DNA of 22,313 bases from a virus: the IMG/VR virus record IMGVR_UViG_3300042504_000478, positions 1 through 22,313 of that record, one strand, 5' to 3'. The position numbers and the translations under genes were made by a program. Every line of letters begins with the position of its first letter. Within the stretch, counting starts at the first letter, position 1. Of this stretch, positions 1,791-22,313 are shown piece after piece. The notes beneath the pieces were generated by a model. That model was not told the origin of the DNA and ran no database searches. It was given only the letters and a program-made list of their open reading frames with translations.

Positions 1791-2219
1791 ATGCCGATCT
1801 CCCAAGGACTCACCACATCGTTCAAGGTCGGCCTGCTCACAGCGTCGTTCAACTTCAACGCCGGCACCTACAAGCTCGCGCTCTATGGCGCGACGGCTGA
1901 CATCGGGCCGAGCACCACAGCCTACACAGCCGTGGGCGAGATCTCGGGCACGGGCTACACGGCTGGCGGGGCCATCATCACGGTCACGACTGCGCCGACC
2001 TCCACGGGCACGACGGCGTTCTTCGGCTTCAGCAACGCCACATGGACGGGCGCGTCGTTCGTTGCACGCGGCGGGCTTATCTACCTCGCCAACGGGACCA
2101 CCAACCCGAGCATCGCGGTGCTGGACTTCGGTTCTGACAAGGTGGCGACTCCGGCTGTGCCGTTCGTGGTGACGATGCCGCCGCCCACTGCAACCTCTGC
2201 CCTCATTCGACTGCCATGA
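1791..2219 (+). CDS. Small beta-rich virion-type protein
   Basis: The protein has 142 residues from ATG 1791. It is threonine/glycine-rich and alternating hydrophobic, suggesting a beta sandwich: TYKLALYGATADI, AYTAVGEISGTGY, ATWTGASFVARGGLIYL, then IAVLDFGSDK. This layout (short Y-x-ALY strand, E-x-SGTGYTAGG, ALIY, AVLDFG) is widespread in phages as a small structural or tail-associated protein of unknown role. Its stop overlaps the next start by four bases (ATGA at 2216-2219), coupling it to the fibre gene, so it may be a fibre-base or decoration subunit. There are no catalytic signatures. Confidence 0.6.
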   Translation: MPISQGLTTSFKVGLLTASFNFNAGTYKLALYGATADIGPSTTAYTAVGEISGTGYTAGGAIITVTTAPTSTGTTAFFGFSNATWTGASFVARGGLIYLANGTTNPSIAVLDFGSDKVATPAVPFVVTMPPPTATSALIRLP

Positions 2220-3739
2220 CGACATACACGACGAATCTTGGGCTTGCGCTGCCGGTCACGGGCGACCTGACTGGCACTTGGGGCGACACGGTCAACAATG
2301 CCATCACGAGCCTTCTGGACTCGGCTGTGGCGGGCACGACCACGCTCAGCAGCGATGCTGACGTGACGCTGACGGACACGACGGGCGCGGCCAACCAAGC
2401 AAGGCAGGCGATCATCCTCTGGACGGCGGGGGGCACGGTCACACGCAACATCACGGCTCCGGCGCGCACCAAGGCGTACATCGTCATCAACGCAACCAGC
2501 AGCACGCAGAGCATCGTGCTGCGCGGAGCGGGGCCTACGACGGGTGTCACCGTGGTGGCCGGCGAGCGCTGCCTTGTGGCGTGGAACGGCACCGACTTCG
2601 TGAAGGTCGGATCGACCGTCTTCTCGGGCACCTTGGGCGTCGCCAACGGCGGCACGGGCGCAACCTCGCTCACGCTCAACAACGTCTTGCTGGGCAACGG
2701 CACCTCGGCCGTTCAGGTTGTCGCGCCGGGTACGAATGGCAACGTACTCACGAGCGACGGCACAACGTGGACAAGCGCGGCTGCGCCGGGTGGTGCCAAC
2801 CTCCAAGTCTTCAGTTCGTCCGGCACATGGACGAAGCCTAGCGGCGCTCAGTTCGTGATGGTGGAACTCTGGGGCGGCGGCGGCGGTGGAGCAAGTGGGC
2901 GTCGCGGTGCAACATCAACAACGCGCGGCGGCGGCTCGGGAGGTGGCGGCGGGGCATTTAATACGCGAGTATTCCTTGCTTCTGACCTGACATCGACTGT
3001 TTCCGTCACGGTTGGCGCGGGCGGGACGGGCGGCGCTGCAATCACTGCCGACAATACAAGCGGAAACAACGGCAGCGCAGGCGGCACAACTTCGTTTGGT
3101 TCATACCTGGACGCGGGAGGCGGCGGCGCTGGTGCAGGCGGCGCAACCTCCGATTATGCAGGGCTGGGAAGTGCGGGTGGAAATGGCGGCACCATCGGAT
3201 CACGCGTCAACACTGCCTCGCCGGTTGTCGGCTTTCCGGGCGGGAGTGGTGGAGGTAGTACCATATCCCAGCAGGCTGGCAATGGTGGGGGATATGGTGG
3301 CGGCGGCGGCTCGTCAACAATGGGCGACACTCTTACAAACGTTGGTAACGGCGGTGGCCGTTCGGCCTTTGGTGGCGGCGGTGGCGGTGCAGGCGGCTCG
3401 ATAGCGTCTAACAACACCCCGCGTTCTCCAACGGTGGGCGGCGGTATTCTTGATTCGACAAACAGCCAAATTGGCGGCGGCGGGGCGGTTGGCACAAATC
3501 CTAACATCAACGTTAGTAATACTGGAACCGATAGCGGCACGGCGGGTGCGGCTGGCTCAACTAAGATTGGCGGTGGTGGCGGCGCTCCGGGGTCTGGGGA
3601 CGGCGGGACGGGCGGCGCTGGTGGTGCGGGCGGTAGTCAAGGCGGCGGCGGCGGTGGCGGCGGTGCAGCGCTAAACGGTAACAATACTGGCGCAGGCGGC
3701 GCTGGTGGCGCAGGCTACGCCCGCATCTACTCGTGGTGA
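2216..3739 (+). CDS. Tail fibre/adhesin with glycine-rich C-terminal domain
   Basis: The protein has 507 residues. The N-terminal half (1-135) begins NLGLALPVTGDLTGTWGDTV, a common virion-attachment start in phage fibres, and has beta strands plus a WNGTDFVKV segment. A linker follows with GVANGGTGATSL and VLTSDGTTWTS, the fibre shaft repeats seen in many phages. From residue 219 (ELWGGGGGG) to the end the sequence is dominated by runs of four to eight glycines separated by short Ser/Thr/Asn/Ala loops, preceded by the typical FSSSGTWTKPSGAQ entry. Glycine-rich domains of this kind (as in phage S16 gp38) can pack as polyglycine-II helices and carry receptor-binding loops. I infer a receptor-binding role. 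The glycine region is richer in A/T at loop codons than the N-terminal half, which suggests loop variation or exchange. Confidence 0.75.
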   Translation: MTTYTTNLGLALPVTGDLTGTWGDTVNNAITSLLDSAVAGTTTLSSDADVTLTDTTGAANQARQAIILWTAGGTVTRNITAPARTKAYIVINATSSTQSIVLRGAGPTTGVTVVAGERCLVAWNGTDFVKVGSTVFSGTLGVANGGTGATSLTLNNVLLGNGTSAVQVVAPGTNGNVLTSDGTTWTSAAAPGGANLQVFSSSGTWTKPSGAQFVMVELWGGGGGGASGRRGATSTTRGGGSGGGGGAFNTRVFLASDLTSTVSVTVGAGGTGGAAITADNTSGNNGSAGGTTSFGSYLDAGGGGAGAGGATSDYAGLGSAGGNGGTIGSRVNTASPVVGFPGGSGGGSTISQQAGNGGGYGGGGGSSTMGDTLTNVGNGGGRSAFGGGGGGAGGSIASNNTPRSPTVGGGILDSTNSQIGGGGAVGTNPNINVSNTGTDSGTAGAAGSTKIGGGGGAPGSGDGGTGGAGGAGGSQGGGGGGGGAALNGNNTGAGGAGGAGYARIYSW

Positions 3740-4565: not shown

Positions 4566-5115
4566 GATCCTATCCTTCATCACGGGCTTTCTCGGCCCTG
4601 TCGTACCGCAGGTCTTCAAGTGGTTCGAGCGCAAGCAGGAGTACCAGCACGAACTCGCCCTGATGGAACTGCGGATGAAGCAGGGCGCTCAGGAGCACCT
4701 GTGGCGTATGGAGTCGATCAACGCCTCGGCCGACATTGCCGAGATGCAGACCCTGCGCACACCGCAGACATCGTTCGGGGTGCAACTGCTCGACGCTGCC
4801 AAGGAATGGGTGAGCGACACCCGATGGGGCGCAGCAGTCATAGTGCCGGTGTTCTACCTGTTCGCGCTGCTGGACTTCGTGCTTGGCATGGTGCGGCCTG
4901 TCATCACCTACGCCGCGTTCGGGTTCTACATGGTCTACAAGTGGACCCTGTTCCAATCGCTCGCCGCCAACACCACCAAAGAAGCTGCCATCCTCGCCAC
5001 TTGGACCGATCAGGACTGGGCGGTGCTGCTGCTCGTTCTGGGCTACTACTTCGGCCAGCGCAGCATGAAGGCGGCATTCGGTGGGTCAACCCAAACGGAT
5101 AAGCGTGCCAACTGA
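4558..5115 (+). CDS. Holin-like membrane protein (GTA 3TM holin-like)
   Basis: ATG 4558 gives 185 residues; upstream in-frame codons overlap the previous gene in another frame and are not protein-like. A short hydrophobic N-terminus (LEILSFITGFLGPVVPQVF) is followed by a charged amphipathic helix (residues 21-68, with KQEYQHELALMELRMKQ). Hydrophobic segments then lie at about 91-111 (AVIVPVFYLFALLDFVLGM), 113-127 and 154-165 (WAVLLLVLGYYF). A soluble helix followed by two or three C-terminal membrane segments fits the GTA_holin_3TM type. Its position immediately before an endolysin gene, two bases away, supports a holin that lets the lysozyme reach the cell wall. The family name is from recall; the membrane protein call is solid. 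Confidence 0.65.
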   Translation: MLEILSFITGFLGPVVPQVFKWFERKQEYQHELALMELRMKQGAQEHLWRMESINASADIAEMQTLRTPQTSFGVQLLDAAKEWVSDTRWGAAVIVPVFYLFALLDFVLGMVRPVITYAAFGFYMVYKWTLFQSLAANTTKEAAILATWTDQDWAVLLLVLGYYFGQRSMKAAFGGSTQTDKRAN

Positions 5116-5117
5116 CT

Positions 5118-5591
5118 ATGAGCGGTCGCTGGCTGCACCTCGCCCGTGATCTCGGCCACGAGTTCGAGGGCTTGCATCGGGTCGGCAAGGATGGGTTGAT
5201 CTACCCGTACCACGACCCGGTGGGGTTCCCCACGCAGGGCTGGGGCCGGCTGTTGAGCCGCAACAAATGGGAGTCGCTGAGCAAGTATCACGCGATCACC
5301 CGCGCCGAGGCCGACGAATGGTTTGAGCGCGATCTCGCCCGCCACGCTCGCGCTGTGTGGGCTCTGTGCCCGGTGCCTATGACGCCGGGGCAGTTTGCGG
5401 CGCTCACGGACTTCTCTTTCAACGCCGGTCCGGGTAACCTAGAGATCAGTGCGCTGCGCCGCCGCCTGCTGCGGGGGGACTACGAGGGTGCGGCCAACGA
5501 ATTCCCGCGCTGGGTCTACGCGCAAGGTATCAAACTCCCCGGCCTCGTGCGCCGTCGTGCGGCTGAGCGCGACCTGTTCCTGAAGGAGTAG
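5118..5591 (+). CDS. Endolysin, GH24 lysozyme
   Basis: The protein has 157 residues, about the size of T4 lysozyme. It cleaves the glycan chain of peptidoglycan between N-acetylmuramic acid and N-acetylglucosamine. The GH24 active site is visible: E17 in EFEGL, D33 in YHDPVG and T39 in FPTQGWG, with the D-to-T spacing of six as in T4 lysozyme (D20, T26) and a longer E-to-D loop (16 versus 9). Further family signatures are FAALTDFSFNAG (helix before the substrate cleft), LRRRLLRGDYEGAANEF and the closing GLVRRRAAERDLF. There is no signal or SAR helix, so release should depend on the holin just upstream. No spanin gene is visible nearby. The ribosome binding site is weak, and coupling to the holin stop two bases upstream is likely. 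Confidence 0.93.
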   Translation: MSGRWLHLARDLGHEFEGLHRVGKDGLIYPYHDPVGFPTQGWGRLLSRNKWESLSKYHAITRAEADEWFERDLARHARAVWALCPVPMTPGQFAALTDFSFNAGPGNLEISALRRRLLRGDYEGAANEFPRWVYAQGIKLPGLVRRRAAERDLFLKE

Positions 5592-5601
5592 TCGTGCTAG
5601 C

Positions 5602-6324
5602 TTATTGCTCTGCTTTGCGCTTAGCCCAGTACGCTTTCATGGCTTCGGATTGGCGTCGTCGCTGTTCGGGGGATCTAAGCGTAGCCGCACGCTTGGCAGC
5701 GATGGTTGGATCGCTGTTAAGTACCTTGTGGTACTCGCGCATGGGATTGCTAGGATCTAGCAGTCGCTCCCTGCGGCGCTGTTTTTCTTCATCTGAGTGC
5801 AGCGGCCTTCCTAGCTTCTTGGCTAACATCATAGTGCGATACTCAGGATCAGCCCACTTAGCTTTTATTTTTGCGCGAACTTCTTCTCGTTTAGCGGGGT
5901 TGGCATCGCCTGCAAACTTCTCGCGAATATCAGCGTCTTTCATGCGCTTTGCTTGTTTGGCTCTGGCAGCTTCCCCCCTAATCGGATGGTTAGGGTCTAG
6001 TAAGGCTTGTCTCAACTTCTCTATGTGTTCGGCAGAACGAGGGTGAGCACCTTGACCTCCCGGCATCAGATTAGTAAGCGTTCCAGTGCCCATCTGTATA
6101 CGCCCATACAGTTCGATAAGTTGCGTTTCCACACGAGTGCCTTCTTCAATGCTGGCCACCGGGCGAAGTTCAACTACAATCCTGTCTACCCCAACTTCGA
6201 GCATTTTTTGCCGACACAGCCAATTCCTGTTACCTTCATTACGGGGGTTGGTGCGCCTGCGGTTTTTTGTAAACCCGACGTAGAATGGAGAGCCTTCGGG
6301 CGTTTTCCAGATGTAGACGTACAA
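5602..6324 (-). CDS. GIY-YIG homing endonuclease (free-standing, antisense)
   Basis: This is the only convincing minus-strand gene. The frame stays open to 6468, but I place the start at TTG 6324: AAGGAG lies six bases upstream, the product then begins MYVYIW, the usual start of this subfamily, and the overlap with the + strand gene at 6364 disappears. The 240-residue product has the nuclease core YVYIW (2-6), FYVGFTKNRRR (14-24) and a catalytic-Glu helix RVETQLIELYGR (E66). A long basic tail carries repeated helical units with LLDPNHPIR and LLDPSNPMR, like the DNA-binding NUMOD-type repeats of homing enzymes. Such enzymes nick or cut specific sites to spread their own gene. GC is about half in the rows I counted (28/60 at 6181-6240), below the neighbours, which suggests recent arrival. 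It ends ten bases after the endolysin stop. Confidence 0.88.
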   Translation of the reverse strand: MYVYIWKTPEGSPFYVGFTKNRRRTNPRNEGNRNWLCRQKMLEVGVDRIVVELRPVASIEEGTRVETQLIELYGRIQMGTGTLTNLMPGGQGAHPRSAEHIEKLRQALLDPNHPIRGEAARAKQAKRMKDADIREKFAGDANPAKREEVRAKIKAKWADPEYRTMMLAKKLGRPLHSDEEKQRRRERLLDPSNPMREYHKVLNSDPTIAAKRAATLRSPEQRRRQSEAMKAYWAKRKAEQ

Positions 6325-6330
6325 GATGTT

Positions 6331-6336
6331 CTCCTT
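6331..6336 (-). promoter_or_regulatory. Ribosome binding site that fixes a TTG start
   Basis: On the minus strand AAGGAG is followed by a six-base spacer and TTG at 6324-6322. It is the best-placed Shine-Dalgarno for the GIY-YIG gene and argues against the longer version that would run into the start of the opposite gene at 6364. Confidence 0.7.
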
Positions 6337-6363
6337 GTTGGTGGCCGGTAGGGGGAGTGTACC

Positions 6364-8487
6364 ATGGGCCTTGTGAAAGTCAAATTCTCTTCCGGCGTTA
6401 ATCGCGAAAATACCCGCTACACCACCGAAGGGGGCTGGTACGACTGCGACAAGATTCGCTTTCGTCAAGGCACACCTGAGCAGATAGGCGGCTGGGCGCG
6501 TATATCAGCCAACACGTTCATCGGCATCTGCCGCTCGCTTTGGAACTGGGTCACGCTGGGGGCGCTCAATCTCATGGGCGTGGGCACCAACCGCAAGTTC
6601 TACATCGAGCTTGGGGGTGCGTACAACGATGTCACGCCGATCCGCTCTACCGCCACGCTGACCAACCCCTTCACGGCCACCAACGGCTCCTCCACCATCA
6701 CGGTTGCGCACATTGCGCACGGCGCTGCCACGGGCGACTACGTCACGTTCATGGGTGCCGGCATCACGGGGCTCGGCGGCAACATCACGGCTGCGCTGCT
6801 CAAAGGCGAGTTCCAGATCACGGTCACCACCGCCAACGCCTACACCATCACAGTGGGGGCCACAGCCAACGCCACGGACGCTGCAGGCTCGCCCGGCGGC
6901 GGGACGGTCATTGCGCAGTATCAGGTCAACTCCGGCGAGACGGCTACGGTGCCGCTGGTGGGCTGGGGCTCGGGCGGCTGGGGTATCTCCTCGTGGGGCG
7001 GCAACGGCCCCGCGCCGTTGAACCCGACAGCGCCTGCTCTGCGCATCTGGAACCAGCAGAACTTCGGCGAAGACCTCGTGTACGGCCCCAACGGCGGGCC
7101 GCTGTACTACTGGGATGCCACCAAGGGCGTGGCCCCGAGCACGGTCACCATCACCATCGCGTCTCCCGGCGTCGTCACGTTCGGCTTTGCGCCCAACAAC
7201 GGCATGGTGGTGTCCTTCACCACGACGGGGGCGCTGCCCACGGGTCTGTCGGTCGGGACGTACTACTACATCGTCAACGCTGCGGGCTTCACGGGGCAGC
7301 TTTCGTTGACCTACAACGGCACACCGATCAACACCTCGGGCTCGCAGTCGGGCACGCACTCGCTGTCGGTGCGTGGGGTGCCGCTGTCGTCCATGCCCGG
7401 TGCCTCGAACACGCCGACCTTCGTGAACTACGCGCTGGTCTCGGACATCAGCCGGTTCGTCTTCGCCTTCGGCACCAATGAGCTTGGCGGGACGGTGGTT
7501 GACCCGATGCTGGTGCGCTGGTCCGATCAGGAGGATGCGGCCAACTGGACGCCCTCGGCCACGACGCAGGCTGGGTTCACTCGGCTGTCCAACGGCTCGT
7601 TGATCCAGACGGCCATCCAGACCCGGCAGGAGATCGTCGTTTTCACCGACTCGGCGCTGTACTCGTTCCAGTACGTCGGCCCCCCGTATGTGTGGTCATC
7701 GCAGATCCTGTCGGCCAACATCTCGGTCATCAGTTCACGCGCAGGCGCTTTGGCCTCGGGCGTCGTCTACTGGATGGGGATTGACAAGTTCTACAAGTAC
7801 GACGGTCGGGTGCAGACCCTGCGCTGCGATCTGCGGCAGTACATCTACACCGACATCAACCTCAGTCAGACTCCGCAGGTGTTTGCCAGCACCAACGAAG
7901 GGTTCAACGAGGTCTGGTGGTTCTACTGCTCGGCGGCAAGCAGCACGGTGGACCGCTACGTCGTGTACAACTACGGCGAAGACATCTGGTACTACGGTAC
8001 GCTGGCGCGTACGGCGTGGATCGACTCCCCGCTGCGGCCCAATCCGCAGGCTGCGACCTACCTGAACAACCTCGTCTCGCACGAGTTCGGTACGGATGAC
8101 AACGACACCGGCACGCCGGCTGCGATCAATTCGTACATCCAGTCCTCTGAGTTTGACATCGGCGACGGGCACAACTTCGGCTACATCTGGCGGGTGCTGC
8201 CTGACATTACGTTCCGTGGCTCGACGGCCGGCTCGCCCACCGCCACGCTCACGCTGTTCACGCTGAAGAACTCGGGCTCGGGCTACACCAGCCCTGCGTC
8301 GCAAGGCGGCACCAACACAGCCAGCATCGTCCGCACGGCCACCCTGCCGGTCGAGGTGTACACCGGACAGGTCTACACGCGGGTGCGTGGTCGGCAGATT
8401 TCGCTGAAGGTCTCCAGCGCTCAGGTGGGCACGACGTGGCAGCTTGGCGCACCGCGCCTCGACATCAAGCCGGATGGGAGGAAGTAG
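6364..8487 (+). CDS. P22 gp10-like tail accessory/DNA stabilisation protein
   Basis: The protein has 707 residues from ATG 6364, with GGGGGAG at 6350-6356 as ribosome binding site. It opens FSSGVNRENTRYTTEGGWYDCDKIRFRQG, then has repeated beta blades: LNLMGVGTNRKFYIE, VDPMLVRWSDQED, a long QTRQEIVVFTDSALYSFQYVG stretch, VYWMGIDKFYKYDG and DRYVVYNYGEDIWYYGTL. This order is typical of the phage stabilisation (P22 gp10-like) family, which forms a propeller that plugs the tail base after packaging. Two modules look inserted: about residues 97-190 (NPFTATNGSSTITV...YTITVGA) and 259-337 (VSFTTTGALPTGL...YYYIVNA), both small Ig/beta-like units often found in phage surface proteins. GC is very high (47/60 at 6961-7020). 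Certain as a virion protein; the gp10 link is from recalled motif order. Confidence 0.65.
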   Translation: MGLVKVKFSSGVNRENTRYTTEGGWYDCDKIRFRQGTPEQIGGWARISANTFIGICRSLWNWVTLGALNLMGVGTNRKFYIELGGAYNDVTPIRSTATLTNPFTATNGSSTITVAHIAHGAATGDYVTFMGAGITGLGGNITAALLKGEFQITVTTANAYTITVGATANATDAAGSPGGGTVIAQYQVNSGETATVPLVGWGSGGWGISSWGGNGPAPLNPTAPALRIWNQQNFGEDLVYGPNGGPLYYWDATKGVAPSTVTITIASPGVVTFGFAPNNGMVVSFTTTGALPTGLSVGTYYYIVNAAGFTGQLSLTYNGTPINTSGSQSGTHSLSVRGVPLSSMPGASNTPTFVNYALVSDISRFVFAFGTNELGGTVVDPMLVRWSDQEDAANWTPSATTQAGFTRLSNGSLIQTAIQTRQEIVVFTDSALYSFQYVGPPYVWSSQILSANISVISSRAGALASGVVYWMGIDKFYKYDGRVQTLRCDLRQYIYTDINLSQTPQVFASTNEGFNEVWWFYCSAASSTVDRYVVYNYGEDIWYYGTLARTAWIDSPLRPNPQAATYLNNLVSHEFGTDDNDTGTPAAINSYIQSSEFDIGDGHNFGYIWRVLPDITFRGSTAGSPTATLTLFTLKNSGSGYTSPASQGGTNTASIVRTATLPVEVYTGQVYTRVRGRQISLKVSSAQVGTTWQLGAPRLDIKPDGRK

Positions 8488-14659: not shown

Positions 14660-17600
14660 ATGCAGACCTACGACGTAAAAGGCCCGGACGGACGCATCTA
14701 TCGCTTCAAGGGCCCGGAAGGCGTCCCTCAAGAAGAACTTGAGGCTGCGGCGCGCAGGGAGTACCTGCGCCAGCCGGCCCCCGACAAGTCGAAGGAGGGG
14801 TTCTTTGCTGCGGCCAAGGCGGGCACTCAGCGCTTGGCTGGGGAAGCTGCGCTTACGGCCGGCAAGATGGGCATCATCGAGCCGGAGCGCGCCGAGCAGA
14901 TCTACGCTGCGCAGCAACAGCGGGCGGCGGAACGGTTTCGCCCCACCGAAGATTCATGGCTGGAATCGCCACTGCTCAAGCTGAAGGAGCTTGCGGGCGG
15001 ATCGGTTCCGTACATGATGGCCCCTGTGGCGGTAGGCGGTCTCGGGGCGTTGGCGGCAACTGGTGTGGGGGCACCGGCTGCAGCGGGGATTGCTGCGCTG
15101 GGCGGTGCAGGGCTTACGTCCCTCACGCAGTTCACCGGCAGCAACCTTGCGCGTAACGTCGAAGAAGGCAAGCGTCTCGCTGAGACCAGCGGTGCGGGTG
15201 CGGTAGCAGCGGCCATCCCCCAAGCGGCCCTTGACGTTGTGTCTCTGCGGATGCTGCCCGGCATCGGGCGCATCTTCAACCGCGCAGGCGTCGAGATCAG
15301 CGAAGAGACGGCGCATCGTATTGCTCAGCAGAAGTTGCGCGAGCGCGTAGCAGACTACACGCTGGCCACCGGCAAGGCGGCAGGCATCGAAGGCACCACG
15401 GAAGCCGCGCAGCAAGTGCTGGAGCGGCTGCAGGCCGGGCTGAGCATCACCGACGCCGACGCGCGGAAAGAGTACTTCGAGAGCTTCATCGGCGGTGCGG
15501 TGCTGGGCGGAGCGATTGCGCCTGTCGGTACGGCGCTGGATCGTGGTCGTGCGGTGCGTGAAGGCACGCGCATGGGTGAAGAGCGGTTGAAGACTGGGCT
15601 GGAGATGGGTCCGCCAGACCTGCCCGCGCTGCTAGCTGGCCCGCCGGATCTTAGCGGTGCGTTTGGCCCGCCGACATGGGCCAAGGGGCTGGAGTCGGCT
15701 GGAGCACCTCCGCTCAAACTGGGGCTTTCCGAGACGCCTGACCAGCGACGCTCGCGTGTCGAGCAAGGGATTGCCGGCATCGAAGCCGAGCTTCAAGCGC
15801 GTGCGCAGGGCACAGAGCCCCTCACGCCGGAGCAGATCATCGCGCTCGATGCGCAGATGGAGCCCAAACGGCAGCAACTGGAAGCGCTCAAACAAGAGCT
15901 TGCCGAGATCGGCCCGCCTCCGCCGGCCCCGCCGCCCATGGCCTCGCTTCAGCAGCAGGAAACGAAGCTGCTGCAAGAGATCGAAGCGGCGCGTGGGCGC
16001 GGTGACCTGTCGCTGCAGGCACGGCTTGCGCGCAGGCTTGTCGAGGTGCGCCGGCTGATGGGCAAGGCCCCGACCGAAGAGGCGATGCCGACGGCCACGG
16101 CGGAGACGCCAACGCCTGAAGTGCCGACCGTCGAAACGCCGCAGCCTACGGAAGCCGAGGCGCTGTATCAGCGCGCAGTCGAGGCGGTGCAGGCGTCGGG
16201 CAAGGCCAGCGTCTCCAGCATCCAGCAGGCGCTCACAATCGGGTACAAGCCCGCTGCCAAGCTGCTCAAGCAGATGGAGGAGGCGGGTGTCGTCAGCCCG
16301 CCGCAGGCCAATGGCCGACGCACGGTGCTGCAGCCTGCGCAGACGGCAGAGCCCGCCGAAGCCGTCAAGCCGGAGCCCACCGAGGCGCTGCCTGCGCCGA
16401 CCACGCCTGCAGCAGAGACCACCGAGTTGACTGCGGCAGCGGAAACGACTGCCCCTGAGCCGACTGCCCCTGCCGAGAAGCCTACCAAACCCGCCAAGGC
16501 AGCACAAGCTGTTGCGCCGGCCGAGGAGCAGGCCGAAGCGCCGCTGCCGGAGTACAAGACGTGGCCCCCGACGCAAGAGCCGGCTGAAGGTGCACCGAAA
16601 GGCGAGCAGTACTGGGGACCGCCGAAGATCACACCGACACGGGAGAAGCGCACCGATGAGTACGAGCGCAACCTGCTGGGGGCGCTGCGCCGGCTGACCA
16701 ACTATTTCGAGCCGAGGAAGGGCATCAACCCGCAGACGCAGGCGGTCGAGATGATGCGCCCCGAGCCCACCGAGGCGCAAGTCGAGGCAGTCACGGAGCT
16801 TCTCACCCGAGGTCTGGAGCGTGGCAATCTGCGTGCCGAGGCACAGCGCGCAACGCGCGCGCAGGGGATGGCGGACGAGGAGCCGCGCATGCGCGGCGTC
16901 AACATCGACGCGGTCCGGGAACTCGTCAACGACATCGCCAAGAGCCCCGAGAAGCGCCAAGCCGTGCAGAAGGCGCTGCGTGACCCGGCAGGGTCCGACT
17001 TCTTCGACACGCTCAGCAAGCGCCTGTTGACGCGCGAGCGTCGGGAGTACCCCGTTCGCAAGCCGTCGCCTACACCCGCGAAAGCGGACAGCCCTGTCAG
17101 GCGGCTGAGCAGCGCGTACAAGCAGGCCGCTGGAGCCAAGCTGGGGGACGAAGACGCTGCGCTCATGCAGCAGTTGCGGCCCTTGCTGCCGCGCATCGCC
17201 ACGGCTACGCCGGAGGTCGGAGATACCGACACGCGCGAGGTGGTGTCCAAGTGGCTGTCGTCAGCCGCGCAGGGCAAAGCGTCGGCCACAGCCCGCGCGC
17301 AAGTGGCCAAGATCGTGCAGTCGTACGGGGAGAAAGCCCCGCCCAAGCCCACCAAGGCGCAGCAGGTCGCTGAGAAGAAGCGGGCCGAGGCGCAGGCCAA
17401 GGCCGACAAGGAACTGGAGCAGGCGCACGCGGCGCTGGAGAAGGCCACCGCACCGCTGAAGGAGAAGCTCGCTGCGCTGCAGGATGCAGCCGCCAAGCTC
17501 GTGCAGGCGCGTGACCTTGAAGGCAAAGCCGCTGCGCAGAAGCGCAACGAGGCCATCACCGGCCTGATGAAAGCCGAGAAGGCGTTGGAGCAGCTACGTC

Positions 17601-20600
17601 TGGAGATTGCCGCGCCGTTTGCCAAGCAGGCGTCCAAGGTGCTTCCCGGCTGGCGTGCACAGGCCATGAGCGCCGACTACTCGGCCGCGCAGCAACTGAT
17701 CCGCGTCTTCGAGCGTGCCACTGAGCAGGCGGCAGAGCAGCTGTTCACTTCGCGCTCGGGCATGACGGAGGCGCAGCTTCAGAACAGCATCTCCCTGCGC
17801 GAGGCGATCTCTGAGCTTCGGCAGGCGTACGAGTCCCCGGACAGCACCGCGCAGATCCGCAGTGATGCCGTCAAGGCGGTCGAGAACGCGCTGACCTACG
17901 TCCGCAACGCGGGACTGCCCAATGACAGCGTGAAGCGCATACGGCGTTTTGACGAGATGCTGGAGCTTGCGGACAGCGCTGCGAAGCGCTACGTCGAGCG
18001 TATGGGTCGGTTTGCCAACATCCAGCAGACGCTGCGTGACATTGACGCGGCGCGGTTCATGGCGCTGTCGGTGCAGCACGCTGTCACGAAAGGCAACGCG
18101 GACAGGCTGATCGAAGCGCAGGAAGCGGTGGTGCAGGCCAAGCAGGAGGCCGACCTTGCGCAAGAGAGCATGAACGCTCTGGCCACGCAGCCTATGGAAG
18201 AGCAGCTGGGGCCGCTCCGCAAAGAGATTCGTCAACTGCGTGCCAAGCTGGACGACGCTGTCAAGGCCCTGTCAGTCACTCGCGACAAGAAGTCTGGCCC
18301 GCTCAGCGGCCAGCTTGGCAAAGCGCTGCTGCAGCTGAACGAAGATGTCATCATCGCCATCGATCCGTTGAAGCCGTCCGAGATGACGAAGACGGATGAT
18401 GGATGGGCGCTGAACTTCGAAGAGCGCACCGTCCGCGCGATCATGCATACGGCGTCTCCGCAGGCTATTGCCCGGCTGGAAGCCAAGTACGGCAAGGAAG
18501 CGCGTGAAGCTGACGAGCAGGCAGTGCGCCGCGTGTACGGCGATGTGTACGGCGCTGACGGTGTTACGCCTGTTTCTAGGCGACGTATTGAGTTCCAGCG
18601 CGGGCTTTCACCTAAAGAAGAGGCGCGTATCGCTGCGCTCGAAGAAAAGTATGCAGACCTGCTGGCTCAACGCTTTACTGGCGATTCTGTCAATGACAAG
18701 CTGCTCAGCGAAGCGCGCGAAGCAGTAAAAGCCAAGATTGAAACGTACAACAACAAGGCCACGGAGCGTCAGAAAAAACTGGAGAACGCTTATGCAACGA
18801 TGATCGCCTCGCGCAAACAACTGGAAGATGCCTTCGCTCAGACCACCACAGAGTTCAATCAAGAACGCGACCCGCTGCTTGCCGAAAAAGACAGGCTACT
18901 GCAAGAACTAACTGTTGAACGCACGGCTGAGCAGATCAAAGCCATTCTTGGGCTCAAGAAAGACTTCTCGCTGGAGGTGCTAAAGGCGCGTCTCGACGCT
19001 AGTTACGCCAGCCGCATTGACAAGCTAGACGCCAAGATTAAAAAGTTCGAAGACGCGTACAGTGCTAAACAGGACAAAACCATCACAGAGCTAGCCAAAG
19101 TCAATACGGCTTTTGAGCGAGATCGTGGCGTTTTTCGTACTACGTTGCCGACACGCGCCGAAATCGCGGCTGCACGCGGTAGCGTGACGCGCGCCGCCGA
19201 GAAGAAGCACATCGACGTGCTTCGCGGGCAGATCGAACTAGCTATGCTCATCACGCACAAAGCGGTAGAGCGTATTGCGGCCACGCAGCATAAACGTCGT
19301 GTCAGTTCACCGCTCATGCGTAAACTTAGCACGCTTGCCCAGTTCTACACAGGCGTAGGACGCTCTCAAAAAGGCGGCGATGGGCGCGGGCGGCTGCTTG
19401 AAAGCACACGCGTTAGTGAACGAGACGTGCCGTTTAGCGCGTTTGAAATTCGACAAATCAATGAGCTTACAGACGCCATCACTGGCAAACCCGCACTTAA
19501 GCGTTCGGAAGCGCAAGCGCCGTACGTCGCAGGCGAACAGCCGACGATTAAGCGCGCAGCCGCCACGACGCTTGAGTCTTTCTTGACTGAAGCCGAAGCA
19601 ACGGTGCTGGCGCGTACAGACATCAAGATGTCGGAAGTTAGCAGCATCATCACTGACGCAATCGATCTGACAACAGAACGCAGTTCAGCAGTTGGACGTG
19701 CTTTCTTTTCTGGCAAGCTGAATAAGCTACTGACCGGCCCCGCGCTTAAAGGCGAATCGGGCTCAGCCGTCGAGGCAGCCCTGAGGCGTTTGTACTCAAT
19801 AGCGGCAGGTGAAACTGCCGGCACTCGTAGACCGCTGACAGAAGCCGAGCGTCTTGCACAAGATGCTGAATTCTTGTCAAGTTCAGCCGTTGAACGACGT
19901 GCGATGTCCGTGGCACGGCAGCAGAAGATTGCCGAGCGTATGAAGCCTCGACCTATCAATGACGAAGAAGCCAGCGCGCTGCGAGACGACAACGACTTCT
20001 ACGCTCGGCAGACTGTCAATGATGTGAGCGCGGATGTGCAGCAGGCGTTGGAGAGCAACGACCTGCCCGCAGCGCTTCGTCTGCTCAGCGAGAACGCCAG
20101 CAGCCCTGAGAACCGCGAGACGGCGCGCCGCCTCCTCGACAACATCGAGGGTGTGCGCGTGGTGGTCGCCGACGAAGTGACGCTCGATGGCAAGGCGGTC
20201 GAAGGCAAGTACAACCCGCAGTCGCTGACAATCACGCTCGACCGGGCACTGCTGAGCGAAGAGACGCTTCTGCACGAGGCCGCGCACCCGGCCACACTGA
20301 GCAGCCTCGACGCGCCGAAAGGCGAGCAGGCGCAGGCGGCGCGCGCCGAGCTTGAGAAGCTCTACAGCGAGGTCAAGGCCGATCCGAAGTTCGCCAAGGA
20401 GTACGCCTCGACCGACCTCAAGGAGTTCGTCTCCGAGCTTCTGTCCAACGCCGATCTGCGCAACAAGCTCGACGCCCGCGAGGGGCTGCTCAAACGCGTC
20501 TACAGGGCGCTGATGCGCCTGCTCGGGTTCGACACCCAGACCGCGTCGCAGAAGGCCATGGCGCAGGCGTACAAGCTGTTCCAGCCGGCAAGCGCCGCGA

Positions 20601-22313
20601 GCGCCGATAAAACCATTGGCTCTGCCGGTAGAGTCAAAGACGCTGCAGTTACTTTCAGGGGGCGTCGAGGACACGCAAGCAACGAATCGGTTATCGCGTC
20701 TTTGCGCGTTATTGACGAAGATGACGACATAGCGTTTGAGTACCCAAAGCGTGTTGGCGCAGTAATGTTGGAGAACATCTATCGAGTAGACAAAGGCGAA
20801 ACCGGACGAGCTACTCCACTACTGCAGTCAATAGCCAACTGGGCAGACGCTAACGGTAAAAAACTGGTGTTGATGCCGTCTGGGGAGATTGCTAACTCCA
20901 GAGCCGCGTTAAAAAATTGGTATGAACGCAACGGCTTTGTTTCAAAAGCGGACGGAGCCATGGAACGTGAACCTGTCCGACGTGTTCTTGCTTCTGCCGT
21001 ACGCGCGCGTGGCATCAACGCTGTGATGAACGGCGTCTTCCCCGGCACCAAGCCGGTTGCTGCGGCCAGTGTCGGTTCTGATGTCGCGGATGCGGTCTCG
21101 CGGGTTGTGGGGCGCAACGCCTCGCTGGGGGACAAGTACACAGCCTTCACTGCCGGCCTCACCGTGCGGCAGGCCATGTTGGATCGGTGGGCGTCTGTCG
21201 AGCACATCCTCAAGCAAGGCATCGCCAAAGGCAAGATCGACGAGACGCGTGCCCTGCAGCTGCGCGTTAACATGCGACTGCACGACCAAGTCAACCAGAT
21301 CACGAGCGCTGGCCTGACGCGTGGTGGCATTCAGTTGACAACGGACAAAGAAAGCAAGGGGGTCAAGTACGTCGAGGCAGTTGGCGGAGCCAACGCCATC
21401 CAGATGGCCAACGCGCTGCGCAAAGCCAAGGTAGGCAACGAGCAGTTCACCGAGCAGCTGTTCACGACGTGGCTCGCTGTCAAACGCGCCGAGTCCATGG
21501 AGGGCGGCTACCGCAAGCTGAACTTCGGTGTTGATGCGAAGGGCAATCGCCTGTTTGACGCGCAAGACGGTGCAGCCATCAAGGCAAAGGTCAACTCCGA
21601 CCCCGCCACGCGTGAGGCGTTCGAGGAGGCTCGGCGCATCTACCGCGAGTACAACGACGGTCTCATCACGCTGCTTGAAAAGTCTGGTGTGATCGACTCG
21701 ACCAAAGCGGCGGAACTGAAGAAGGGCGACTTCGTTCCGTTCTATCGCATCTCGGGCGACGTGGTGGAACTCGACATCGGCGCGTCGCGTCCTGTCACCA
21801 TCGGCAACGTCATCGACCAGCCCTACCTGCGCGAGCTTGTGGGCGGCGAAGACAAGATCATGCCTGTGTTCTCCAGCATGGCGCGCAACACCGGGCTGCT
21901 GGTGCAGCTGTCCCTGCGCAATCTGCAGGCCAAAGACGTGGCCAACATGCTGCAAGAGACGGGGCTTGCCACCATCGTCTCCAAGCGCATTGAACAGAAC
22001 GGACGCATCATTCGGTTCAAGTACGGCGGCAAAGAGTGGTCTGCTGTGCTTGACGCTGCGGCTTTCAAAGAGCAGGGCCTGACGCCTGAGATGGTTGTGC
22101 AGGGGCTGCAGGGCGTGAAGACCGCCATCCCTGCGGTGGTTCAAGCGATGTCCTACCCGGCGTCGCTGCTGCGCAAGTCCATCACGCGCACGCCTGTCTA
22201 CGTCGTGCGGCAGATGATCCGTGACCCGCTCAACGCGTGGCTCACCACAGGCGGGGACATCAACCCGCTGAAAGTGGCGGCGGGCGGCATCAAGAACATG
22301 TTCTCGACCAAGT
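14660..22313 (+). CDS. Giant polyvalent (ejected-type) protein, 3' end cut off
   Basis: One frame runs from ATG 14660 (TAAGGA at 14645-14650 upstream) to the window end: at least 2551 codons, no stop. N-terminus: YDVKGPDGRIYRF, PEG (4-21), a common phage virion start. Gly/Ala hydrophobic stretches at ~116-155, 178-203 and 272-290 could cross membranes; between them EGTTEAAQQVLERL (244-257) recurs in large phage and mobile-element proteins. Residues 501-559 resemble the FtsK gamma winged helix, followed by a Pro/Ala/Glu linker to ~655. Long coiled-coil stretches lie at ~894-994 and 1316-1481. HEAAH at 1872-1876 with E1922/E1926 fits a zincin-like metalloprotease. Residues ~1990-2095 look like a GNAT acetyltransferase. 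From ~2115 the helical region with RQMIRDPLNAW resembles polyvalent-associated (LPD38-like) domains. I infer an ejected multi-domain protein; every domain call needs profile confirmation. Confidence 0.75.
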   Translation, partial: MQTYDVKGPDGRIYRFKGPEGVPQEELEAAARREYLRQPAPDKSKEGFFAAAKAGTQRLAGEAALTAGKMGIIEPERAEQIYAAQQQRAAERFRPTEDSWLESPLLKLKELAGGSVPYMMAPVAVGGLGALAATGVGAPAAAGIAALGGAGLTSLTQFTGSNLARNVEEGKRLAETSGAGAVAAAIPQAALDVVSLRMLPGIGRIFNRAGVEISEETAHRIAQQKLRERVADYTLATGKAAGIEGTTEAAQQVLERLQAGLSITDADARKEYFESFIGGAVLGGAIAPVGTALDRGRAVREGTRMGEERLKTGLEMGPPDLPALLAGPPDLSGAFGPPTWAKGLESAGAPPLKLGLSETPDQRRSRVEQGIAGIEAELQARAQGTEPLTPEQIIALDAQMEPKRQQLEALKQELAEIGPPPPAPPPMASLQQQETKLLQEIEAARGRGDLSLQARLARRLVEVRRLMGKAPTEEAMPTATAETPTPEVPTVETPQPTEAEALYQRAVEAVQASGKASVSSIQQALTIGYKPAAKLLKQMEEAGVVSPPQANGRRTVLQPAQTAEPAEAVKPEPTEALPAPTTPAAETTELTAAAETTAPEPTAPAEKPTKPAKAAQAVAPAEEQAEAPLPEYKTWPPTQEPAEGAPKGEQYWGPPKITPTREKRTDEYERNLLGALRRLTNYFEPRKGINPQTQAVEMMRPEPTEAQVEAVTELLTRGLERGNLRAEAQRATRAQGMADEEPRMRGVNIDAVRELVNDIAKSPEKRQAVQKALRDPAGSDFFDTLSKRLLTRERREYPVRKPSPTPAKADSPVRRLSSAYKQAAGAKLGDEDAALMQQLRPLLPRIATATPEVGDTDTREVVSKWLSSAAQGKASATARAQVAKIVQSYGEKAPPKPTKAQQVAEKKRAEAQAKADKELEQAHAALEKATAPLKEKLAALQDAAAKLVQARDLEGKAAAQKRNEAITGLMKAEKALEQLRLEIAAPFAKQASKVLPGWRAQAMSADYSAAQQLIRVFERATEQAAEQLFTSRSGMTEAQLQNSISLREAISELRQAYESPDSTAQIRSDAVKAVENALTYVRNAGLPNDSVKRIRRFDEMLELADSAAKRYVERMGRFANIQQTLRDIDAARFMALSVQHAVTKGNADRLIEAQEAVVQAKQEADLAQESMNALATQPMEEQLGPLRKEIRQLRAKLDDAVKALSVTRDKKSGPLSGQLGKALLQLNEDVIIAIDPLKPSEMTKTDDGWALNFEERTVRAIMHTASPQAIARLEAKYGKEAREADEQAVRRVYGDVYGADGVTPVSRRRIEFQRGLSPKEEARIAALEEKYADLLAQRFTGDSVNDKLLSEAREAVKAKIETYNNKATERQKKLENAYATMIASRKQLEDAFAQTTTEFNQERDPLLAEKDRLLQELTVERTAEQIKAILGLKKDFSLEVLKARLDASYASRIDKLDAKIKKFEDAYSAKQDKTITELAKVNTAFERDRGVFRTTLPTRAEIAAARGSVTRAAEKKHIDVLRGQIELAMLITHKAVERIAATQHKRRVSSPLMRKLSTLAQFYTGVGRSQKGGDGRGRLLESTRVSERDVPFSAFEIRQINELTDAITGKPALKRSEAQAPYVAGEQPTIKRAAATTLESFLTEAEATVLARTDIKMSEVSSIITDAIDLTTERSSAVGRAFFSGKLNKLLTGPALKGESGSAVEAALRRLYSIAAGETAGTRRPLTEAERLAQDAEFLSSSAVERRAMSVARQQKIAERMKPRPINDEEASALRDDNDFYARQTVNDVSADVQQALESNDLPAALRLLSENASSPENRETARRLLDNIEGVRVVVADEVTLDGKAVEGKYNPQSLTITLDRALLSEETLLHEAAHPATLSSLDAPKGEQAQAARAELEKLYSEVKADPKFAKEYASTDLKEFVSELLSNADLRNKLDAREGLLKRVYRALMRLLGFDTQTASQKAMAQAYKLFQPASAASADKTIGSAGRVKDAAVTFRGRRGHASNESVIASLRVIDEDDDIAFEYPKRVGAVMLENIYRVDKGETGRATPLLQSIANWADANGKKLVLMPSGEIANSRAALKNWYERNGFVSKADGAMEREPVRRVLASAVRARGINAVMNGVFPGTKPVAAASVGSDVADAVSRVVGRNASLGDKYTAFTAGLTVRQAMLDRWASVEHILKQGIAKGKIDETRALQLRVNMRLHDQVNQITSAGLTRGGIQLTTDKESKGVKYVEAVGGANAIQMANALRKAKVGNEQFTEQLFTTWLAVKRAESMEGGYRKLNFGVDAKGNRLFDAQDGAAIKAKVNSDPATREAFEEARRIYREYNDGLITLLEKSGVIDSTKAAELKKGDFVPFYRISGDVVELDIGASRPVTIGNVIDQPYLRELVGGEDKIMPVFSSMARNTGLLVQLSLRNLQAKDVANMLQETGLATIVSKRIEQNGRIIRFKYGGKEWSAVLDAAAFKEQGLTPEMVVQGLQGVKTAIPAVVQAMSYPASLLRKSITRTPVYVVRQMIRDPLNAWLTTGGDINPLKVAAGGIKNMFSTK
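16160..16336 (+). other. FtsK gamma-like winged-helix domain in the giant protein
   Basis: Residues 501-559. ALYQRAVEAV, GKASVSSIQQ, TIGYKPAAKLLKQMEEAGVV and the NGRRTVL closing strand align end to end with the gamma domain of FtsK, whose E. coli version contains KASISGVQR, IGYNRAARIIEQME and NGNREVL. The length, about 59 residues, matches. The domain sits between Pro/Thr/Glu-rich linkers, as it does at the end of FtsK. Confidence 0.8.
20222..20500 (+). other. Zincin-like metalloprotease segment (HEAAH) in the giant protein
   Basis: TLLHEAAHPATLSSL (H1872, E1873, H1876) gives the HExxH zinc motif after a beta strand (SLTITLDRALL). About 46-50 residues later DLKEFVSELLSN supplies a candidate third ligand and the EFV-x-E signature seen with such motifs in large phage polyvalent proteins. 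Zinc binding and activity are inferred. Confidence 0.65.
20607..20960 (+). other. GNAT-like acetyltransferase segment in AT-richer DNA
   Basis: A strand-turn-helix with GETGRATPLLQSIANWAD (acetyl-CoA pyrophosphate-loop-like, from residue 2046), a strand KKLVLMP and ALKNWYERNGFV (the usual GNAT end, Y2088 to F2093) fit the GNAT fold. Base composition drops here (28/60 GC at 20881-20940 versus 40/60 at 20041-20100), so the segment looks spliced into the older frame. Confidence 0.6.

Follow-up and report, generated by a model that had tools for sequence, protein, structure and literature searches.

The window analyzed here, the whole stretch of 22,313 bases that makes up the record of an uncultured virus of bacteria, contains a nuclease gene in antisense orientation between an endolysin gene and a virion structural gene. 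We consider it very probable (about 0.85) that this gene belongs to a one-site family of free-standing GIY-YIG homing genes aimed at the first codons of the virion structural gene directly after the endolysin, for which a mechanism is proposed below. Comparison of related loci shows a single insertion site, empty alleles, independent movement together with a short 5' tract, a promoter motif, purifying selection and decay. The features of the locus are collected in Table 1.

Table 1. Features at the endolysin/structural-gene junction of the window.
Feature	Position	Strand	Evidence and remarks
GIY-YIG homing endonuclease gene	5602..6324	-	240 aa, TTG start, TAA stop; ORF, PF01541, PHROG 314, I-TevI fold
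Endolysin (phage lysozyme)	5118..5591	+	PF00959, E 1.2e-32
Virion structural ("phage stabilization") protein, 707 aa	6364..8487	+	PHROG 3287, E 3.2e-61; relatives annotated as stabilization protein
AAGGAG ribosome binding site of the homing gene	6331..6336	-	Sequence; GGAGAAC-type at the same place in most homologues
Putative extended -10, TGG TACACT	6356..6364	-	TGG overlaps the start codon of the structural gene; motif kept in homologues
-35-like TTGACT	6378..6383	-	Within the structural gene, with 16 nt between it and the downstream -10; read in the window sequence
Former GTG start codon of the structural gene	5594..5596	+	Window stop+TC+GTG corresponds to stop+CC+GTG of empty L002
New start region of the structural gene, GGGGGAG + ATG	6350..6366	+	Insert-borne; absent from L002
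Inferred target / co-transferred 5' end of the structural gene	6364..6393, by analogy to about 6447	+	Drop of identity to L002; tracts in other pairs

Alleles of the endolysin junction

A preliminary description of the locus had reported an antisense gene between two late genes, with an exact fit in the gap and a GC content below that of the neighbours, and these points were reproduced. The minus-strand ORF 5602-6324 is located between the endolysin and the structural gene, and its stop codon (5602-5604) lies ten bases past the endolysin stop (5591). The TTG (6324-6322) follows 6 bases after AAGGAG (6336-6331), and with this start 39 bases separate the TTG from the ATG at 6364. The GC content of the homing gene is 51.9% (GC3 50.6%), compared with 66.5% and 63.8% for the neighbours (GC3 82% and 86%).

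Two further reading frames of the window were recorded in passing. Positions 14660-22312 form one uninterrupted reading frame that is truncated by the end of the record and spans at least 2,551 codons. In Pfam it matched only an FtsK gamma domain (residues 498-557, E 3e-18), an unexpected domain for a phage protein encoded among virion genes. Positions 2216-3739 encode a glycine-rich protein (Gly_rich_2, E 3.6e-9), probably a part of a tail fibre or appendage.

For the analysis of the insertion site the loci L082-L127 were fetched by the nuclease sequence alone, with the flanks playing no part. In all 46 of these loci and in all 43 further ones the nuclease gene is located antisense directly before the structural gene (89 of 89 examined); L128, with a homing-gene fragment at the contig end, was set aside from this count. 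The nuclease copy of L082 is identical to that of the window. Searches for relatives yielded 113 loci in one case and at least 600 in another, and 80 were kept from each. Eight duplicate loci (L082, L111-L113, L118, L124, L129 and L130) were dropped before counting. The remaining distinct structural-gene starts, 144 in all, comprised 46 occupied and 98 unoccupied ones, the latter including the contig-end fragment of L128. The gap measured at most 48 nt in 52 of the 66 unoccupied loci having an endolysin match.

The preliminary description had proposed a comparison of the junction with related phages lacking the gene, and had predicted an empty allele in which the uninserted version is continuous. 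Such alleles were found rather than a fixed presence of the gene in all relatives: the 98 unoccupied starts include those of L002 and L067, and in both the junction is continuous. In L002, the nearest relative of the window among the matches listed, the endolysin stop and the second codon of the structural gene are only 5 nt apart (CC plus the GTG start), whereas in the window the endolysin stop is followed by TC, GTG and then the insert. The former start codon has thus been left on the upstream side of the insert, which contributes a new ATG. L089 versus L027 and L126 versus L026 show this replacement of the start as well. The structural gene starts with ATG at all 29 distinct occupied junctions, and with ATG (37) or GTG (6) at the 43 empty ones; a Shine-Dalgarno sequence of this gene was present at 19/29 occupied versus 27/43 empty junctions, which is no clear difference. 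The abandoned GTG of the window opens a plus-strand frame of 150 codons across the nuclease gene (5594-6046), probably a by-product of the insertion.

A group I intron was rejected as an explanation, as the empty junction is continuous and an Rfam search of 5100-6900 with E values up to 1 gave no match. The structural ORF is uninterrupted and the nuclease gene is intergenic, so that it is free-standing, with neither intron nor intein.

Some of the other loci are arranged differently. L136 has a different neighbour, and the gaps of L137, L141, L163 and L173 hold ORFs resembling other virion genes, not nucleases; the gaps of L139, L140, L164, L166 and L193 have about the same length as these. 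The ORFs in the gap of L187 likewise read as non-nuclease, and the gap of L190 is equal in length. Phage DSL-LC04, described as metagenome-assembled (PMC10611076), is empty at the junction and has an endolysin of another type. A 70-aa Cys-rich ORF in the gap of L176/L177 appears zinc-ribbon-like by eye, and DSL-LC04 has an annotated zinc ribbon gene slightly upstream of the junction.

The nuclease and its antisense promoter motif

The GIY-YIG profile PF01541 scored 24.6 bits in the genome search and 22.5 bits with the trimmed protein (Pfam cut-off 22.6), which makes the domain match borderline, and the homing protein matched the homing endonuclease family PHROG 314 with an E value of 7.6e-5. 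Comparison of an AlphaFold2 model (pLDDT 83.6, pTM 0.42) with the catalytic domain of I-TevI using VIA-align gave a Z score of 10.4 and an rmsd of 2.3 over 87 residues. The residues Y4, Y15, G17, R24, E66 and N85 are invariant across 22 homologues, and their order presumably follows that of the catalytic residues of I-TevI. The domain match, the I-TevI-like fold and the empty alleles in relatives agree with the earlier assignment as a homing nuclease of the GIY-YIG type; the homing function is supported by comparison, and cleavage by the protein is predicted. Helical repeats are predicted for the C-terminal part, in which neither a NUMOD3-like module nor another Pfam match was found. Within the family the C-terminal halves vary as modules (total lengths of about 200-284 aa) next to a constant catalytic half, and this variation may track target specificity.

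The best annotated relative is the Seg-like homing endonuclease of Rhizobium phage RHph_X2_25 (MW960032), with 28.5% identity over 85% of the protein. Among 50,697 phage records just two remote relatives of the nuclease were present, and no similarity at the DNA level was detected in the phage collection. A PDB sequence search with the homing protein returned nothing relevant, and 49 pattern matches in 84,980 bacterial and archaeal genomes included no confirmed relative. The homologues are 32-73% identical, with omega values of 0.03-0.14 in pairs with finite dS. These values exclude a chance ORF and indicate strong purifying selection on the nuclease gene in the pairs measured.

The TTG start of the earlier annotation was compared with the homologues using a pattern for the conserved codons 2-6, which located the place in 86 of the 89 occupied loci. 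The preceding codon is ATG in 73 loci and GTG in 4, and only the window (1 locus) has TTG; the remaining 8 loci have a non-start codon there (GCG in 7, CAC in 1), and two of them, L048 and L121, begin upstream when read through. Because homologues carry ATG or GTG at the identical codon, the TTG start is well supported even without protein sequencing. An upstream TTG at 6468, which would give 288 aa, was rejected, since homologues begin at the codon corresponding to 6324 of the window.

In 26 of 30 distinct leaders the minus-strand motif TGnTAnnnT occurs about 33-47 nt before codon 2, whereas 2000 mononucleotide shuffles of the leaders gave a mean of 2.8 and a maximum of 8 of 30. Scored relative to the structural-gene start, the motif was present at 25 of 29 distinct occupied junctions and at none of the 43 distinct empty ones; with the further loci included, the occupied count rose to 45 of 56 distinct junctions. 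All these counts are drawn from related sequences and not from independent trials. Most of the 11 junctions lacking it show a TATAAT-like hexamer without the TG (read by eye). The nuclease family therefore seems to carry its own antisense promoter, with probable promoter activity at the extended -10. The earlier statement that the gene has no partner genes misses this insert-borne promoter-like element and the new start codon of the neighbour. A minus-strand terminator was not found in 5000-6800, and phage RNA polymerase (PF00940) had no match in the 57-kb contig, a search in which the controls likewise matched nowhere.

Movement between phages and the co-transferred tract

A FastTree phylogeny was calculated from 121 structural proteins (41 occupied, 80 not) after removal of the first 40 residues; 19 loci with another gene order or distant sequences were left out, as were rows shorter than 250 residues. 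The distribution of the nuclease gene on this tree requires a minimum of 18 gains or losses, of which 16 are imposed by supported branches, compared with 34 in shuffles, and the copy of the window falls among empty alleles. Pairwise comparisons pointed in the same direction. The nuclease genes of L071 and L115 are 98% identical and their structural genes 45% (nt 200-800); the corresponding values are 100% and 72% for L218/L220, 99.7% and 70% for L211/L212, and 99.5% and 71% for L210/L214. The reverse case is L071/L076, with 70.6% identity of the nuclease and 93% of the structural gene. By these comparisons the nuclease and the structural gene have different histories, and the nuclease gene moves independently of its neighbours.

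The extent of the transferred sequence can be read from closely related alleles. Between L071 and the empty L067, 52 of 90 positions of the structural gene are identical in nt 1-90 and 761 of 810 thereafter, and the last difference of the 5' stretch lies at nt 84 (read from the sequences). On the endolysin side the last 60 nt are identical to L067 in L069 and L072 (60/60), and L071 matches at 6 of 15 positions next to the junction and then at 45 of 45. Tracts shared between carriers end in the structural gene at nt 29 (L210/L214), 71 (L071/L115), 79 (L211/L212), 95 (L218/L220) and 101 (L084/L086); in L238/L239 (nuclease 96%) mismatches are scattered from nt 4 onward and the tract has no clear end. 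In the window, 15 of 30 nt at the start of the structural gene are identical to L002 and 52 of the next 60, with p values of 0.0003 against these 60 nt and 0.007 against the next 870 for a break chosen after looking. This signal is weak because the nearest empty relative among the matches listed is only 82% identical. The loci are metagenome contigs, phylogenetically non-independent and with many near-copies, so that the Fisher values of the comparisons are too optimistic.

According to these alignments, 29 to about 100 nt from the 5' end of the structural gene are transferred along with the nuclease gene. The cut site of a homing enzyme normally lies inside the replaced tract, and for this reason we expect it 29-84 nt from the insert. 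Transfer tracts reach only the side of the structural gene, so that the likely target is within the first 29-84 nt of that gene. The preliminary description had named the endolysin/tail-gene junction as target; it was right about the locus, and the tracts move the likely site into the structural gene. The block of this gene after about nt 84 is strongly conserved, and the tract ends may mark where conservation permits recombination rather than the cut.

This conservation would also suit an enzyme that cuts far away from its own gene, with the short tract marking no more than crossovers in the conserved block. For the free-standing enzymes of T4, the part of PMC2988022 available to us gives such distances, hundreds to thousands of bp, as the rule. 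We nevertheless regard a distant site as unlikely in this family: the independent tracts end at nt 29, 71, 79, 95 and 101, all near the insert, a distant site would require a long converted tract to avoid recutting, and L069 and L072 show no tract on the endolysin side in comparison with L067.

Several alleles agree with repeated invasion and loss. L036 has a 48-nt scar which keeps the leader and the new start without the gene; both flanks are like those of the occupied L125, and the structural proteins of the two are 99.6% identical. The nuclease copy of L127 is frameshifted. L035 carries an HNH gene (1099-1842; PHROG 3377, E 9.9e-47) in this place, likewise antisense, with the 3' end of the endolysin gene duplicated on its far side and TATAAT upstream, and therefore a second type of nuclease entered this junction at least once. 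A different GIY-YIG-like ORF was read from the sequence of L035 before the endolysin (115-711).

The scar and the frameshifted copy, together with the at least 16 gains or losses and the near-identical phages without the gene (L067 versus L069/L071; L050 versus L048), make it quite improbable that the gene is domesticated, i.e. retained because the nuclease or its antisense transcript controls lysis or virion genes and not through homing, although the strong purifying selection in the measured pairs and a promoter motif overlying the start of the neighbour would fit such a role. There is equally little to recommend a passive cargo swapped by ordinary recombination between related phages without drive by the nuclease. 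Homologous flanks would let general recombination exchange the block, but the occurrence at one site in 89/89 loci, the tracts ending just past the insert and the complete conserved catalytic site would be left unexplained. A transposon-like insertion, which the lower GC content and the antisense orientation alone would permit, can practically be dismissed, as neither terminal repeats nor a target-site duplication were found in 5560-6480 and the insertion sites are without variety (89/89 the same).

Proposed mechanism and relation to known homing genes

For a homing gene aimed at the first codons of the structural gene we propose the following course of events. During co-infection by two related phages the nuclease would be made from its own antisense promoter and would cut the structural gene of the uninserted allele close to its start. 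Carrier-templated repair would then copy the nuclease gene into the recipient, along with the 5' end of the carrier's own structural gene (29 to about 100 nt). The foreign 5' end should escape further cutting because its sequence differs, and the structural gene would stay expressed because the insert supplies a new start codon. Both the position of the cut and the immunity through an altered 5' end are what we infer from the alignments. The first 30-90 nt of the structural gene are diverged in carriers. Of the 29 distinct carrier N-termini 11 do not match the motif G[VI]N[RK]E[NG]TRYT, and neither do 19 of the 69 from empty alleles, these 19 including several distant relatives; 18 of the 29 occupied N-termini keep the common motif, and an altered GVN motif occurs in 8 of the 29, in about three nuclease lineages.

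Somewhat speculatively, the insert may represent a mobile cassette of fixed address with three functions in one: the nuclease, an antisense early promoter over the virion start codon, and a replacement 5' end that would provide the start signal, the upstream region of the promoter and immunity. Late sense transcription would then switch the nuclease off. If this tentative reading is true, the layout itself times the nuclease to early infection, and homing reshuffles the N-terminus of the structural protein across phages.

Judged by its sequence, the gene of the window is a free-standing Seg-type GIY-YIG homing gene in an unusual antisense layout, seemingly with its own promoter. We file it as a variant of the free-standing GIY-YIG homing genes because of the antisense orientation, the seemingly own promoter and the close target deduced above. 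With the Seg enzymes of T4 the family shares an intergenic nuclease, empty alleles in relatives and a co-converted flank. According to the available part of PMC2988022 all homing genes of T4 run with their neighbours except segD; compared with the other seg genes, the window family is antisense (89/89) and its likely target is only 29-84 nt away. SegD is similar in being a free-standing GIY-YIG enzyme encoded antisense between late virion genes (23 and 24), but that part of PMC2988022 states that no specific promoter was found for segD and that its transcript is thought to be vanishingly low. The window family differs by its conserved promoter motif, a distinction that follows from the description of SegD and not from its sequence. 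The catalytic domain has the fold of I-TevI, but in contrast to I-TevI the nuclease is found without a group I intron, and its helical C-terminal part belongs to no recognised family. The homing endonuclease gene of RHph_X2_25 is located in another gene context and on the same strand as most of its neighbours. The literature searches made here turned up no report of this junction-specific antisense GIY-YIG family.

In T4 the only antisense homing gene, segD, was considered almost silent because it lacks a promoter, whereas the antisense family described here keeps a promoter-like element across 89 loci. Empty, occupied, decayed and scar alleles occur side by side, so that the homing cycle, antisense timing and the immunity of carriers can be tested at one locus. 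The family shows a selfish gene that repeatedly replaces the first codons of a virion gene, whose function is seemingly spared.
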